A DNA stretch of 64,000 nt. It comes from Leptodontidium sp. MPI-SDFR-AT-0119 (Eukaryota > Ascomycota > Leotiomycetes > Helotiales > Leptodontidiaceae). The stretch lies in the NCBI GenBank assembly GCA_020726505.1, contig JAHLEZ010000012.1, positions 1,860,001 to 1,924,000 of the forward strand. Direction: 5' to 3'. The position numbers and the translations under genes were made by a program. This document shows, piece after piece, positions 17,648 through 63,900 of the stretch (position 1 is the stretch's first letter; each line of letters starts with the position of its first letter). The notes beneath the pieces were generated by a model. It did no database searches. It was not told where the DNA came from and saw only the letters and a list, made by a program, of their open reading frames with translations.

Positions 17648-18670
17648 CTAAGCAGGACGAGTTCCATCACCAGGAGCAGCAGGCCTGGGAGCCGCCGCAG
17701 CGCCTCCAGGTTTCTGCATGATTCCAACACCAGATCCCCCCTCTCCAGTCCCAAGTTGCACCTCAGGTGAGACTTGCATAGAACCCATAGCATATGCTAG
17801 AGCAGCATTGAAGCCAGCTAGATCCCTTTTCGCAGTCGTTTCGTCAGCTTCGTTCTTCATAAGCTTTAAAACAGAAAGAGACACACCTCGTTTCTCGTTG
17901 TCCTCGATATCAGTCTCTTCATCAATCTCCTCCACCTCTTCGGCTGTGAGAGCTCGCTTTGTGTTATCGGTAATAGCGGCTTCTTCTTGGGCTTCTTCCA
18001 AAGCTTCCTCTTCTTCCGCAGTTAGACCATCGAACTCATCACGCTTGGTATTATCCGTGATAGCAGCCTCCTCTTGAGCCTCCTCAAGTGCTTCTTCCTC
18101 TTCAGCGGTTAAGCCGTCGAACTCGTCCCGCTTAGTGTTATCGGTAATCGCAGCCTCCTCCTGGGCCTCTTCGAGCGCCTCCTCTTCTTCAGCAGTTAAG
18201 CCATCGAATTCATCACGCTTGGTGTTATCAGTGATGGTTGCTTCTTCCTGGGCTTCTTCGAGGGCCTCTTCCTCCTCAGCTGTAAGTCCATCAAACTCGT
18301 CGCGCTTATCAGGAGTCAGCACTTCGATGGTGTCGGCGCGAGAGTTGACGATCTTGCCCATCCCTTGGGGTAGAACTGCAGCGGGAATGCTCTCGGCGGC
18401 TGGGGCAGCAGGCGCTGGCTGTTGAGCGGGTGCTGGTTGAGTGATTGGAGCAGCAGCTTGACCATTGGCGGGTGCAGGACCGTTGGCTGTGGCGCCTTGA
18501 AGGGTGTTCATGAGATTGGCGACCTGGTTGGTACCACTGGCTCCTTCGAATCCAATAGCTCCATCACCGACTACCAGAGCTGGAGAATATGCTCCCATAT
18601 TGATGTTGAGAGGGAGGGAGAGGACGGCAGTGGCCGCGAAGAGGGCGATATATGGTGATGGGTACTTCAT
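17648..18670 (-). CDS. secreted Kex2-type repeat precursor protein
   Basis: Intronless, 340 residues. Residues 1-19 form a signal peptide (MKYPSPYIALFAATAVLSL). Residues 20-110 are Ala/Pro/Gln-rich. At 122-123 the first Lys-Arg pair begins an array: four 29-residue repeats (124-152, 153-181, 182-210, 211-239), each starting DEFDGLTAEEEEALEEAQEE and ending DNTKR. A shorter diverged unit ending DNEKR (240-261) and one ending TTAKR (262-282) follow. The tail (283-340) is Gly/Pro/Ala-rich. Lys-Arg is the site of the Golgi protease Kex2, so the layout is that of Kex2-processed repeat proteins, which include pheromone and dikaritin RiPP precursors; up to six peptides could be released. No UstYa/DUF3328, tyrosinase or other tailoring enzyme lies nearby, so a modified cyclic peptide is not supported. 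The peptides are strongly acidic and probably helical. Function unknown. Confidence 0.75.
   Translation of the reverse strand: MKYPSPYIALFAATAVLSLPLNINMGAYSPALVVGDGAIGFEGASGTNQVANLMNTLQGATANGPAPANGQAAAPITQPAPAQQPAPAAPAAESIPAAVLPQGMGKIVNSRADTIEVLTPDKRDEFDGLTAEEEEALEEAQEEATITDNTKRDEFDGLTAEEEEALEEAQEEAAITDNTKRDEFDGLTAEEEEALEEAQEEAAITDNTKRDEFDGLTAEEEEALEEAQEEAAITDNTKRALTAEEVEEIDEETDIEDNEKRGVSLSVLKLMKNEADETTAKRDLAGFNAALAYAMGSMQVSPEVQLGTGEGGSGVGIMQKPGGAAAAPRPAAPGDGTRPA
17954..18301 (-). repeat. four tandem 87 bp coding repeats
   Basis: Units at 18301-18215, 18214-18128, 18127-18041 and 18040-17954, each 29 codons. Copies 2, 3 and 4 encode identical peptides and copy 1 differs by one residue (Thr for Ala at position 22), yet the copies differ at many third codon positions. 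Confidence 0.95.
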
Positions 18671-57146: not shown

Positions 57147-59918
57147 ATGACGCAATCGGTATTCGTAATTGGCCTGCGCTTTGAACACCATGCTGAAGGG
57201 CAAGCCCTGGGCACTGGCACTGCCAAACCGCGCATCTCTTGGAAGTACACAGCTCTCGGCCCGGAGTGTCGTGATTGGGTTCAGGACAGCTATGATATCG
57301 AGCTCCAGCGCCAGCCCACTGACCCAGATCCCATACTAGCAGCATCTACGCCTGCCCGCCAAGTATACCATGTCAACAGCACTGATTCGCTGTTTGCCCC
57401 GTGGCCGACAACCGCCCTCTCATCACGCGAAATAGTTTCTGTTCGGGTCAGGGGCTACGGGCATTGTGAAGACTTGGTGGACGAACAGCATGTTGTGACT
57501 CCAACGGCATGGTCGAATACTGCTGTTGTTGAGGCTGGATTGCTCCATCCGTCGGATTGGAGTTGTGAATTTGTTGGCAGTGGACGTCCACCTCAGCCAG
57601 ACGAGCCACTCCCACCACTGCTCTTTCGCCGCGAATTTTTGATATCCCCGGACAGGTCACCACTCATTAAGTGCGCGAGAATCTATGCCACTGCGTATGG
57701 CTTGTACGAGCTATTCCTCAATGGAAGCCGCGTCGGCGACCAAGTGCTCGCTCCTGGATGGACAGAGTACAGTACCCGATTAGAATATCAAACATACGAC
57801 GTCACAAAACTACTACAGAGCGGTCCCAATGTCGTTGCTGTGGAAGTTGCCGAAGGCTGGTTTGCAGGCCGCTTGGGTTACTCGGGAGGGATCCGTAACA
57901 TCTGGGGAGCGCAAGTCGCATTTATGGGGATGCTGGTGGTGGACTATGAGGACAAGACTGAGATCTCGGTGGCAAGTGATGCACAGTGGAAATGGTCGCA
58001 GAGTCCAACAACGAGCGCAGAAATCTATGATGGCGAGCACTTTGATTCTTTGCAGGATCCAGCTGGCTGGTCGACAGCTGGGTTTGATGATGGCGACTGG
58101 GAGTTTGTTAAATCTTTTGCAGCCAATGCCAATATCCTCTCCGCACCGCTGGGCCCTCCTATCCGCATTGTTGAGGAGATTCCTGTAAAACAGGTTGTTA
58201 CAAGCCCATCGGGGAAAACGATCCTTGACTTTGGACAGAATCTTGTTGGGTATTTACGTTTTTCGGTCCAAGGTGGCTCGTCGCAGAAAGGAAAGACCAT
58301 TACTCTGAGGCATGCTGAAGTCTTGGAACATGGGGAAATCGCTACCGAGCCTTTACGCTTTGCGAAAGCTGCCGATACTGTAATCCTGTCAGACCAGCCC
58401 ATGGTCTGGTCCCCTAAATTCACCTTTCATGGGTTCCGTTATGCTCAAGTTGACGGTCTGGAGAGTATTTTGCCTCTCGTATCCCCCACGACGATAAGCC
58501 AGCTGTTTACTGCCATTGTCATTCATAGTGACATGACACGTACTGGGTGGTTCACTTGTTCCAATCCGCTGTTGAACCAGCTACACTCGAACATTGTCTG
58601 GTCGATGCGGGGGAATTTCGTGGGCGTTCCTACCGATTGTCCCCAGCGTGACGAGCGACTTGGTTACACTGGAGACCTACAGGCCTTTGCAAGTACTGGT
58701 TCATTTCTCTATGATACCTGTGGAATGTTGAGCACCTGGCTGCGTGGCCTGGCGGCTGACCAAGACCGGGAGGGATTGGGCGTGCCACCGATGTATTCGC
58801 CCAACATTCACCGTGCACAGCCCAACTACGCGGCAGCAGTATGGGGGGATTGTACCGTCATTGTCCCATGGGAGCTGTATCGGTCGTATGGAGATGCAGA
58901 GATACTCAGAACACAATACCCTAGCATGAGAGACTGGGTGGAGAAAGGCATCAAGAGAGATTCACGTGGCCTGTGGGATTCGACGGCCACCCTTCAGCTT
59001 GGAGACTGGTTGGACCCGTATGCCCCAGTCACAGAGCCGGCGAGCGGTGCGACCGATCCACAGCTGGTGGCAAACGCATACCTGGTCTACGTTTCCGACT
59101 TGATGGCTCAAATCAACGTCGTCCTGGAATCCGATGAAACGGCAGACCGCTACCGGCAACAAGCTTTCGCCTTGCGAAAGGCATTCCAGGATGAGTATAC
59201 AACTCATAATGGTCGTGTGGTTTCTGACTCGCAGACATCTCTCGCCCTTGCTATTTACTTTCACCTGCTCCCGTCCGAAAGTGAGGAGCAGGTCGCCAGT
59301 GCTCGACTGGCGTACAAAATCCAGTATCACAGTCGCTTTAAAATCGGTACCGGATTCGTGGGCACACCCATCCTTGGCCATGCACTCACTCAATGTGGTA
59401 AATCACAGCTCTTCTACCGTATGCTGCTGCATAAAAAGAACCCCAGTTGGCTGTACCCTATCACCATGGGCGCGACTACGGTTTGGGAGCGCTGGGATAG
59501 CATGTTGCCAGATGGCAGCGTGAACTCCGGTACAATGACCAGCTTCAACCACTATGCGCTGGGAGCGGTGGGCGATTGGTTACACAAGACAGTTGCCGGT
59601 TTGCGGTGTCTCGCTCCTGGGTGGAAGCGATTTGTCGTGAACCCGGTCCCGGGCGGGGATCTGACGTTCACGGAAGCTAAGTTTGATAGCCCCTGTGGGT
59701 TAATCAAGTTTCACTGGAGTTTGCTAGAGAACGGCACTCGTTTGAAGGCCAGTCTACTGGTTCCGCCAAATACAACTGCAGAGCTTTTGCTTCCGGGACA
59801 GAAAGTGGAAGTGCTTGGGTCCGGGTCTTACGACTATGATGTGTCAATTGAGCAAGCTTCATGGCCACCGTTGCCTATTTATCCGCCATATATGCCCCAC
59901 GATGATGATGAGCCATAA
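57147..59918 (+). CDS. alpha-L-rhamnosidase, glycoside hydrolase family 78
   Basis: Intronless, intact, 923 residues, the usual size of bacterial-type GH78 enzymes found in fungi. The N-terminal beta domains (about 1-380) include YATAYGLYELFLNGSRVGDQ and AEGWFAGRLGYSG; the segment TILDFGQNLVGYLRF precedes the catalytic (alpha/alpha)6 barrel. The catalytic motif VPTDCPQRDERLGYTGDLQA carries the acidic residues used by this family, and the barrel continues through WLRGLAADQDREGLGVPPMY and MGATTVWERWDSM to HYALGAVGDWLHKTVAGL. It releases terminal rhamnose from plant glycosides such as flavonoid rutinosides. No signal peptide is visible, so it is probably intracellular, which fits import of the intact glycoside by the neighbouring transporter. 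The lack of introns is consistent with, but does not prove, bacterial origin. Confidence 0.95.
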   Translation: MTQSVFVIGLRFEHHAEGQALGTGTAKPRISWKYTALGPECRDWVQDSYDIELQRQPTDPDPILAASTPARQVYHVNSTDSLFAPWPTTALSSREIVSVRVRGYGHCEDLVDEQHVVTPTAWSNTAVVEAGLLHPSDWSCEFVGSGRPPQPDEPLPPLLFRREFLISPDRSPLIKCARIYATAYGLYELFLNGSRVGDQVLAPGWTEYSTRLEYQTYDVTKLLQSGPNVVAVEVAEGWFAGRLGYSGGIRNIWGAQVAFMGMLVVDYEDKTEISVASDAQWKWSQSPTTSAEIYDGEHFDSLQDPAGWSTAGFDDGDWEFVKSFAANANILSAPLGPPIRIVEEIPVKQVVTSPSGKTILDFGQNLVGYLRFSVQGGSSQKGKTITLRHAEVLEHGEIATEPLRFAKAADTVILSDQPMVWSPKFTFHGFRYAQVDGLESILPLVSPTTISQLFTAIVIHSDMTRTGWFTCSNPLLNQLHSNIVWSMRGNFVGVPTDCPQRDERLGYTGDLQAFASTGSFLYDTCGMLSTWLRGLAADQDREGLGVPPMYSPNIHRAQPNYAAAVWGDCTVIVPWELYRSYGDAEILRTQYPSMRDWVEKGIKRDSRGLWDSTATLQLGDWLDPYAPVTEPASGATDPQLVANAYLVYVSDLMAQINVVLESDETADRYRQQAFALRKAFQDEYTTHNGRVVSDSQTSLALAIYFHLLPSESEEQVASARLAYKIQYHSRFKIGTGFVGTPILGHALTQCGKSQLFYRMLLHKKNPSWLYPITMGATTVWERWDSMLPDGSVNSGTMTSFNHYALGAVGDWLHKTVAGLRCLAPGWKRFVVNPVPGGDLTFTEAKFDSPCGLIKFHWSLLENGTRLKASLLVPPNTTAELLLPGQKVEVLGSGSYDYDVSIEQASWPPLPIYPPYMPHDDDEP

Positions 59919-60982: not shown

Positions 60983-63900
60983 ATGGGAGAGGGAAGCACC
61001 ACAATCGATAGAGAGTTCCTTGTGGACAAGCTCAGTTTATCCGAAGCCTCCAGTCTACTCTCAGCGCGAGATCTGTTGGTGCTCATTTCTATCGCGGGTT
61101 TATCAAGCATTGAGGCGCTGACTGTAGCTCTCACAGGTGGCATACACAAGGGCTGCCTAGTCTAAATATCGCATCACTTCGCGTGAGTATAATACCCCAA
61201 CATCAGATTGGCCCCAATTACCCATAACTGGGGACCTGCCGAGAGAATGGAGCTCTGGTTGATTCTTCTCATACAATCTAGGTTTCCGATGGTCCGAATG
61301 GAGTAAGAGGGTAATAGCCTTTGCGTTCCTCCCCTCCTCCTGATCAGTATCTGGAACCTGACCAAACAATCTAATTTCTGCTGCAGTATTCGAACTTTCA
61401 ATGGAAGCAAAACGGGATGTTTTCCTTGCGCCTCGGGGCTGGCGTCCACATGGGACGTCGACTTGCTGTTAGAGATCGGTCAGGAGATGGGTAGGCAGGC
61501 TAAAGCCAAGGGCGCTCAGTAAGTGAACGGCCTTTGAGTCGTCACCCTTTCCACCAACCTTATTAACGAGAAGCGACCTGATAGCCTTGTGTTGGCTCCA
61601 ACAATCAACATCCATCGCTCGCCGCTTGGTGGCCGTAACTTCGAGGCCTTTTCGGAAGACCCTTTTCTCTCTGGCCATCTGGGTTCCAATCTGATACAGG
61701 GTCTACAGGGTGAAGGTGTGGGCGCGGTTGTGAAACATTTTGTCTGTAACGACGTCGAAACAGACCGCACGAAAGTTGATGTCATAGTTCAACAGAGGTG
61801 AGCTGCCGACGGCTAGAGCGTCGTTGCGATATCAAGCCGTAAAGATGTGCAGCGTTTCTAACGTGTGCAGGCCGCTTCGAGAAATCTACCTCAAGCCATT
61901 CGAGATCGTGATTCGCGATGCTAAGCCCTGGGCGGTAATGTCGTCGTACAACAAGGTGAACGGAGTGCACGTCAGTGAGAGCAAAGACCTCCTCGACGGA
62001 GTCCTGAGAAAGGACTGGGGCTGGGATGGCGTTATCATGTGAGTTATGAAATACTTTGCCTTGCATTGCCTTGTCTTGTCTTACCGTACCTTGTGTTGCC
62101 TTGTCTTGCCTTTCCTTGCCATTTCTTTTCGTTGCTTATGAACTCGATACTAATCGAGGAAGGTCTGACTGGTGGGGAACGTACTCGACCGTCGCGGCCT
62201 TGAACGCAACTCTTGACCTGGAAATGCCTGGTCCCGCAGTGTGGCGAGGGGTAGATCGTATTAGTCGTGCCATTAGCTGTGGCAAGCTGGAGCGAGCAGC
62301 CGTTAATTTCAGCGCAGCCCGCATCCTAAATCTCGTCGAAAAGGTCACGCAGACTTGCACGCCGGAGAATCTTCCCGAGAGAGAGGATAATTCACAAAGT
62401 TACCGTGAATTGAACAGGAGAGCTGCCGCTGCCGCGGTTGTGTTGCTCAAGAATGAAGGGAATATTCTCCCTCTGCGATTGAAATCGTGTCACAATATCG
62501 CAGTTATTGGGCCAAATGCCACCAAGGATATATCCAGTGGCGGAGGTTCGGCGAGTGTCAACGCGTACTATTACGTCTCAGCAATCGAGGGTTTGATGGC
62601 TGGGGCACGGGAAGTGTCTCCAGAGACAGTCATATCCTTTGCCCAGGGATGCTACTCAGATGAGCTGCTGCCGTTATTGAAGACAACAACAGCTTCTGGT
62701 GACAAAGGCTTAGACATCAAGTTGTTTCCACACCCATTCGACTTTGATATCGATTCAATGGCAGCTCCGGCTGCTTCTATTACCAGCGAAAATTCGAAAA
62801 TGTTCTTCTTCGACTGTCTCCCTTCCATAGCCTTACCCATAACATGGGCTCTTTGTGAAGGCGTCTTCGAACCACCCGTTGATGGCGATTATGAATTCGG
62901 AGTTGCGACCACAGGACGGGCTAAGCTCTTCGTGGACGACGAGATCGTGGTAGACAATTGGTCTAAGCAGCAGGTGTCGAGAAACTTTTTCAGTAAGTAG
63001 AGGCAAAAGCCAATTCGTCCAAGGAGAACTATGTATGACAACAAGCTAATGACATAGCAATGGGAACTCCGGAGGTAAGGTCAAAAATATGCTTAAGCGC
63101 AAGCAAGAGTTACAAGATCTCGATTCGGTATTCCTGCATCAGCTCATTCCCACACCGCAAGCCAGGGGATCTTGCAGGTGGAATACTTCGCGTCGGAGCA
63201 CGCCTGGTGTCCAGTAATGCAGACTTGATAAAAGAAGCGGTACAAGCAGCGTCAAAATCAGATACTGTCATCCTATGTCTGGGCACGGATGGGGACAGGG
63301 AATCAGAAGGCTTCGACAGAACACACATGAGGTTAGCTCCCGTTCGAGGCCACAGAACAAGTAGAAGACCGACCAAGTTGACTCTGATGCTAATGTGCGC
63401 GTCTGTGACAGTTTGCCCGAGGAACAGAACCTGTTAGCCGCTGCTATCCTTGAAGCTAATCCACGCACCATTGTTGTGAATTTTTCTGGTAGCCCGGTGG
63501 AAATGCCCTGGGCTTCAAAGGCACCAGCCATTCTGCAGTCCTGGTTTCTCGGCAGTAACCTGGGTGATGGCATTGCAGATATCTTGCTGGGTAAAGTGAA
63601 TCCAAGTGCAAAGCTTCCAGTCTCTTTTCCAATCAGCTTAAAACACAACCCTTCGTACGGAAACTTCCCCGGAACCAATGCAGTCATACGCTATGATGAA
63701 GGGTTACTTGTCGGCTACCGTCACTACACAACTCGAGAGGTGCCGACGCTTTTTCCTTTTGGTCATGGCCTCTCATACACCACATTTGATTTCAGCGACT
63801 TGGTTACGTCAGATCCCACAATCTCACCTCAGGGTCAGAACCAAGTCACCTTGCAAGTCACGAACTCTGGTGAGTTAGAAGGGGATGCGGTGGTCCAGCT

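Follow-up and report, generated by a model that had tools for sequence, protein, structure and literature searches.

Kex2-processed repeat proteins (KEPs; Le Marquer 2019, PMC6339444; Umemura 2020, PMC7329392) are among the described proteins closest to the gene analysed here, which we call KEP1. As defined in PMC7329392, a KEP carries at least three tandem repeats of 8–100 residues between KR, KK, RK or RR sites. The functions of these proteins are described as largely unknown (PMC9769878, a study in which Coprinopsis KEPs were expressed in Pichia pastoris), and which of the predicted KEP peptides matter is hard to tell. KEP1 has four units of 29 residues, each ending in KR, an architecture that would place it in this known class under the published repeat rule; it shares with the described KEPs a signal-like N-terminus and at least three dibasic-ended repeats of at least 8 residues, and its unit size lies within the 25–50-residue class of PMC6339444. 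The first-pass annotation of this DNA had recognised no described family, a statement that lacks support in this form, both for the array, which falls under the KEP rule, and for its flanks, which lie in a large secreted family. KEP1 differs from the described KEPs in that its array is framed by the two conserved cores of a secreted family whose members are mostly non-repetitive, in having related units in a second precursor, and in residues that are fixed at synonymous saturation; by eye, its unit also matches none of the shared motifs that are written out in the Results text of PMC6339444. KEP1 is most likely a new type of KEP that would yield acidic helical peptides. Cadophora appears in two of the KEP types in Table 2 of PMC7329392, and one protein discussed below, P0123 of Cadophora sp. 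DSE1049, a precursor of the type that the source genome has on contig C12, may already be in the supplementary list of that paper.

Repeated peptides excised by Kex2 are also a feature of MFalpha1-like alpha-type pheromone precursors. According to PMC5850478, 16 synonymous 39-nucleotide versions encode the same alpha-factor in Saccharomyces, and the MFalpha1 repeats show concerted evolution, whereas none is seen at the DNA level among the KEP1 units. The latter are, in addition, longer than alpha-pheromones, strongly acidic and devoid of a Trp/Cys pheromone core: they begin DEFDG, contain neither Trp nor Cys, and lack the XA/XP dipeptides described in PMC6339444 as the Ste13 signature of alpha-type precursors. 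Given the missing core, the identification of KEP1 as an alpha-pheromone precursor was rejected. With W-C-x3-G-Q-x-C, which we take to be the pheromone core pattern, a search of the source genome (77 Mb in 69 contigs) gave six scattered matches and no array, against two matches in a reversed control.

Dikaritin and ustiloxin RiPP precursors are likewise secreted Kex2 repeat precursors, as is predicted for KEP1, but the window (the whole 64,000-nucleotide stretch of DNA that was analysed) holds no UstYa match and the repeat unit no Tyr, on which grounds a dikaritin-type identity was rejected. The flanks of the array are shared with a two-core family, defined by its NINLGAYSPALVVGDG and LGTGEGGSGVGI cores, whose named members are, judging by name, Leotiomycetes; KEP1 has both cores and the Kex2 site before the C core, and differs in its dibasic-rich linker. 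Neither the core and unit sequence strings nor the combination of Kex2, synonymous, core peptide and repeats was found in openly licensed literature. We favour, with a probability of roughly 0.64, a reading of KEP1 as a Kex2-processed repeat precursor that would release acidic peptides, and the evidence for and against it is given below.

Results

Layout of the predicted KEP1 precursor

The KEP1 open reading frame spans exactly positions 17648..18670 of the window on the minus strand, is free of stops over 340 codons with no intron needed, and encodes a predicted secreted precursor. Its N-terminus reaches a 10-residue mean hydropathy of 2.56 from residue 8, against at most 0.79 in later 19-residue stretches, and residues 6–18 form a helix in a low-confidence structure model; the predicted signal peptide comprises residues 1–18 (18617..18670), with a cleavage site placed by eye. 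It is followed by the N core (residues 20–41, 18548..18613; PLNINxGAYSPALVVGDGxIxF), in which 18 of 22 positions are invariant among 50 aligned members, and by an Ala/Pro-rich stretch that leads into the array. Units 1 to 4 occupy residues 124–152 (18215..18301), 153–181 (18128..18214), 182–210 (18041..18127) and 211–239 (17954..18040), all ending in Lys-Arg; units 2–4 share one protein sequence, DEFDGLTAEEEEALEEAQEEAAITDNTKR, from which unit 1 departs at a single residue, Thr for Ala at unit position 22.

Beyond the array lie a shorter, related B-type unit (residues 240–261, 17888..17953; ALTAEEVEEIDEETDIEDNEKR), which has counterparts in P0002, P0003, P0008, P0010, P0012 and P0013, then a final Kex2-bounded segment delimited from the sequence (residues 262–282, 17825..17887) and the C core (residues 283–317, 17720..17824; DLAGFNAAL...LGTGEGGSGVGI), directly preceded by Lys-Arg; all of these features lie on the minus strand. 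N core, intervening Kex2 site and C core are thus all present and in order, making KEP1 a member of the two-core family. Each unit contains a helix in one structure model; the two models made are both of low confidence (mean pLDDT 64.4 and 58.8, pTM 0.28 and 0.22), and a Pfam scan of five two-core family proteins gave no domain over the cut-off. The frame, the signal-like N-terminus, the Kex2-type repeat architecture and the four units that are identical but for one residue had all been proposed in the first-pass annotation and agree with these results.

Unit residues are fixed while synonymous sites are saturated

At the DNA level, the four units are far less alike. The six unit pairs differ at 19, 19, 19, 18, 15 and 21 of 29 codons, and, with the exception of the Thr/Ala difference of unit 1, all of these changes are synonymous; for units 2 and 3, 18 of 29 codons differ, 18 of 18 synonymously, exactly as the first-pass annotation had it. 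Comparisons of two-fold codons show a difference in 50 of 96 cases and those of four-fold codons in 39 of 51, and the units are still detectable in DNA as a tandem repeat with a period of 87, 4.1 copies and 77% matches. Synonymous differences per unit pair amounted to 18.0, against 17.0 after shuffling synonymous codons among units. Because the observed and shuffled values are so close, the synonymous sites must be regarded as saturated, with no trace of common origin; a significant excess of synonymous change between units was not found by shuffling, since 93% of 2000 shuffles fell at or below the observed value. On the strength of this saturation, recent duplication or gene conversion of the units was rejected, as it had been on first inspection.

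We compared this pattern with a simulation of mutation alone (kappa 3, star tree, 200 runs). When matched near the observed share of same-residue codon differences (0.57 simulated, 0.63 observed), the simulation altered 25.5 of 29 residues per pair, with a minimum of 19, whereas KEP1 unit pairs differ by 0 or 1 residue. The combination of fixed protein and saturated DNA is far beyond chance, and strong purifying selection acts on the residues of the units. The nine Glu columns comprise 36 codons, every one of them GAA or GAG and never GAT or GAC (Asp), despite 27 of 36 four-fold codons in the units ending in C or T, showing that selection separates Glu from Asp; this exceeds what charge alone needs. 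Fixation of residues at saturated sites, with Glu never replaced by Asp, supports a peptide precursor, and it means that in KEP1 residue-by-residue selection can be read from sequence alone.

Related units occur in a second type of precursor

A search with the KEP1 repeat region, in which a capped set of 7985 candidates was scored, returned three proteins, namely P0002, P0003 and P0122 of Rhynchosporium agropyri (E=3.7e-12); Drepanopeziza P0004 was not returned from among these candidates. P0122 contains neither core, and carries two long-type units together with several short ones. Its alignment to the KEP1 repeat region scored 277, a value reached by none of 500 within-unit shuffles that kept Lys-Arg (maximum 137), and the reverse search with P0122 found, besides itself, P0123, P0002 (E=4.9e-20) and P0003 (E=8.0e-11). 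By these alignments, the KEP1-type unit recurs in a second, different Kex2 precursor.

A relative of P0122 is also encoded in the source genome, on contig C12 (L017, 1373..525, minus strand; best pieces E=6.5e-27 and 7.6e-27), unlinked to KEP1. The L017 precursor has four Lys-Arg-ended DLTPEEEAQIDAEDAEKR units of 18 residues that are identical in protein, and 11.67 of 18 codons differ per pair, compared with 11.41 after shuffling (an observed value that 68% of shuffles did not exceed), indicating that these units are synonymously saturated as well. Among the four Lys-Arg-ended copies, 7 of the 22 columns of the preceding linker are variable and none of the 18 in the unit (Fisher p=0.011), while synonymous divergence is alike in this comparison (0.61 and 0.65 of same-residue codons). 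In this test the copies were picked by unit; picking by linker brings in a fifth copy at the protein C-terminus, which has no Lys-Arg and a diverged unit. Once this copy is counted, variable columns number 12 of 18 in the unit and 7 of 22 in the linker (p=0.055, in the opposite direction). This may mean that only releasable copies are conserved, or that the linker-versus-unit control is weak.

The occurrence of related units in the core-less P0122 and in L017 supports a Kex2-processed peptide precursor, and two different scaffolds bearing such units point to the peptide as the thing kept. Against this reading stand the L017 control, which holds for the four Lys-Arg-ended copies only, the missing Pfam domain, and the direct comparisons of KEP1 with the L017 precursor, which falls short of significance (29 of 500 shuffles score as high), and with P0123 (14 of 500). 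For the C. gregata repeat region, 1 of 500 shuffles reaches the score against P0123, and 54 of 500 against the C12 protein. Direct homology of the KEP1 and L017 precursors was rejected on the non-significant direct comparison; a genome search with the L017 protein found only itself, and the ITDNTKR DNA pattern occurs nowhere in the genome but in the four KEP1 units.

The array is an exception in its secreted family

Searching with the whole of KEP1 gave 264 homologues at E<=0.001, and the counts in this section refer to the best 120 of these together with KEP1, 121 proteins in all; this selection favours proteins sharing words with the cores, so that the family fractions are no unbiased census. 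The N core pattern is present in 121 of 121 proteins and the C core in 118. Directly before the C core, KR or RR is found in 105 of the 115 members recognised by pattern and a single Arg in the other 10, with 6 of the 121 proteins unrecognised. Among the matches listed, the 118 members with both cores have linkers with one dibasic site in 82 cases, two in 23, three in 6 and none in 5; the remaining two, KEP1 and Drepanopeziza P0004, have 7 or 8, whereas the other 116 stay within 0–3. Arrays are also present in P0002 (C. gregata) and P0003, which fall outside the count of 118 because both records are without the C core.

A second Drepanopeziza brunnea record, P0006, equals P0004 minus exactly the array, sharing its first 109 and last 81 residues, which reflects either a predicted, perhaps mispredicted, intron in the array or its real absence. 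Of two Diplocarpon rosae records, which may represent a single locus modelled twice, one has a poly-Glu/Asp linker and the other almost no linker, and the source genome encodes two further family members, both without an array. From the linker counts and the array-less P0006 we conclude that, as far as these sequences tell, the two-core protein is common and the array the exception; elsewhere in the family a short Kex2-cut linker connects the cores, and the KEP1 array appears to be a lineage-specific expansion of this linker. Both the rarity of such linkers (2 of the 118 listed members with both cores) and the P0006 record count against a peptide precursor.

Alternatively, the acidic array may serve as a propeptide or spacer, aiding folding, transport or charge balance of the cores, and the peptides themselves would have no targets. 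Across the family, conservation is far higher in the cores than in the linker, whose length ranges from 16 to 179 residues among the matches listed; the poly-Glu/Asp Diplocarpon linker and the array-less Drepanopeziza record also favour a spacer. Candida Ywp1, as described in PMC6258133, offers a known case of a wall protein that keeps its Kex2-generated propeptide. We nevertheless regard a spacer as rather unlikely, in view of the second precursor type, which bears such units without either core, and of the Glu residues that are never Asp at saturated sites in KEP1, which charge alone would not require.

Other members of the family have features of their own. P0109 of Coleophoma cylindrospora has four tandem TEPFTYDAEGNE[IV]EKR units downstream of the C core, a different Kex2 array within the same family, and P0098 of C. 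crateriformis has one such unit. Four Monilinia and Sclerotinia members (P0058, P0064, P0086 and P0113) carry the UniRef label 'CSEP0039 effector protein'; no mention of CSEP0039 was found in openly licensed literature.

The unit drifts between species

We aligned 17 long-type units from five sources (15 from P0001–P0004 and two from P0122). Mean identity within a source is 98.3% for KEP1, 89.1% for C. gregata and 90.8% for Drepanopeziza, and the KEP1 units are on average 86.2% identical to those of C. gregata, 68.1% to Rhynchosporium and 51.3% to Drepanopeziza. Ala17, Glu19, Glu20, Ala21 and Thr27 are invariant across all 17 units. The differences within and between species indicate that the peptide drifts between species and that near-exact identity is a lineage feature. 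Strong selection on the peptide, as asserted in the first-pass annotation, is thus borne out within KEP1 and does not extend to an identical peptide across species; the variation within C. gregata (mean 89%) and the 54% identity between C. gregata and Drepanopeziza units weigh against a released peptide. The Kex2 spacing that the annotation had proposed to check in homologues is kept in P0001–P0004, where 15 of 15 long units end in KR; P0006 has no array, and the Diplocarpon rosae linkers are poly-Glu/Asp or nearly absent. In P0122, one long unit ends in KR and one in KQ.

At unit position 4, all four KEP1 units have Asp, and six of six aligned C. gregata and P0003 units have Glu. This species-specific residue points to an amplification more recent than the split from C. 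gregata; the saturation at synonymous sites points to great age. In two sister secreted proteins, C. gregata and the source fungus differ by only about 9% (194 of 214 and 176 of 193 residues identical); the second of these, L007, is identical to a Leptodophora protein at 192 of 193 residues and to a Cadophora gregata protein at 176 of 193, which makes the source fungus a probable near relative of these Helotiales. The conflict has two possible explanations: the split between the species may already be old as measured at synonymous sites, or change at these sites may have been favoured.

In the latter case, one copy would have been amplified fairly recently and the copies would then have diverged unusually fast at synonymous sites, selection against DNA repeats, which are lost by unequal crossing-over, favouring recoding. 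The shared Asp4 would fit such a history, as would the small distance between the two species, with which saturation is hard to reconcile. We consider it improbable, however, as the synonymous excess falls short of significance (in KEP1 and L017, 93% and 68% of shuffles, respectively, did not exceed the observed values), and old amplification followed by long purifying selection gives the same picture. A further reading, to which we give a similarly low weight, holds that one acidic helical Kex2 peptide family occurs on two secreted scaffolds as a mobile module, its arrays invariant in protein and their DNA driven apart against recombinational loss of copies; if true, this would be a recognition-grade peptide system under selection for both DNA dissimilarity and protein identity.

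Predicted processing and products

The proprotein-convertase P domain (P_proprotein, PF01483) has one match over the cut-off in the genome, on contig C5, covering positions 1–57 of 86 and crossing an in-frame TAA, perhaps an intron. That KEP1 is not cut at every Lys-Arg and is instead one long acidic helical wall or surface protein, to which the repeats give length and charge, is very unlikely: a helix in each unit of a low-confidence model is compatible with it, as is the failure to find the unit strings, and hence any peptide evidence, in openly licensed literature, but 15 of 15 aligned long units of P0001–P0004 end in Lys-Arg, 105 of the 115 members recognised by pattern among the matches listed carry a dibasic site immediately ahead of the C core, and the genome has the P-domain protease match.

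A Kex2-processed precursor that releases acidic peptides is supported by the four Kex2-bounded units that fall under the published KEP rule, and by the 15 of 15 Lys-Arg ends together with the P_proprotein match. Under this reading, the KEP1 protein would enter the secretory pathway, Kex2 would cleave behind every Lys-Arg, and the two basic residues would then be removed by a Kex1-type carboxypeptidase. The predicted products are four acidic 27-residue peptides, DEFDGLTAEEEEALEEAQEEA[A/T]ITDNT, with a net charge of -12 and a mass of about 2970 Da (near 3254 Da if Lys-Arg is retained), which are probably helical, as well as one shorter related peptide; the N and C cores would be separated. The peptides may have a recognition-type role, signalling to the fungus or to its plant-associated environment, or may serve a structural purpose outside the cell. 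The sequence itself shows the array, its Kex2 spacing, residues that stay fixed at saturated sites, related units in a second type of precursor and one genomic P domain. The unlinked L017 gene has the same pattern among its four Lys-Arg-ended copies, and together the two patterns name exact peptides to make and test.

Genome neighbourhood

The first-pass annotation had also seen no RiPP tailoring genes nearby, and this proved correct for UstYa (DUF3328, PF11807), which has no match in the window: the nearest match ends at C4:1640489, about 237 kb from the start of KEP1 at C4:1877648. Genome-wide, there are 70 exon-level UstYa matches at E<=0.001, on contigs C12, C45, C31, C22 and others; several are clustered, for example at C45:1436392-1447866, and may mark dikaritin-type loci. 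The window has 11 further open reading frames of at least 190 codons, ten of which were scanned with Pfam (that at 62056-63000 being left out; intron-split genes may escape such a list). The ten encode MFS and sugar transporters, a ferric-reductase-like piece, an NmrA-like protein, an alpha-L-rhamnosidase and others, and no peptide tailoring gene was recognised among them. The longest window frame listed (57147-59918, plus strand) runs in a single frame over 923 residues with five alpha-L-rhamnosidase-type Pfam domains, and a frame at 1837-2637 on the minus strand combines an NYN domain with a following OST-HTH/LOTUS domain.
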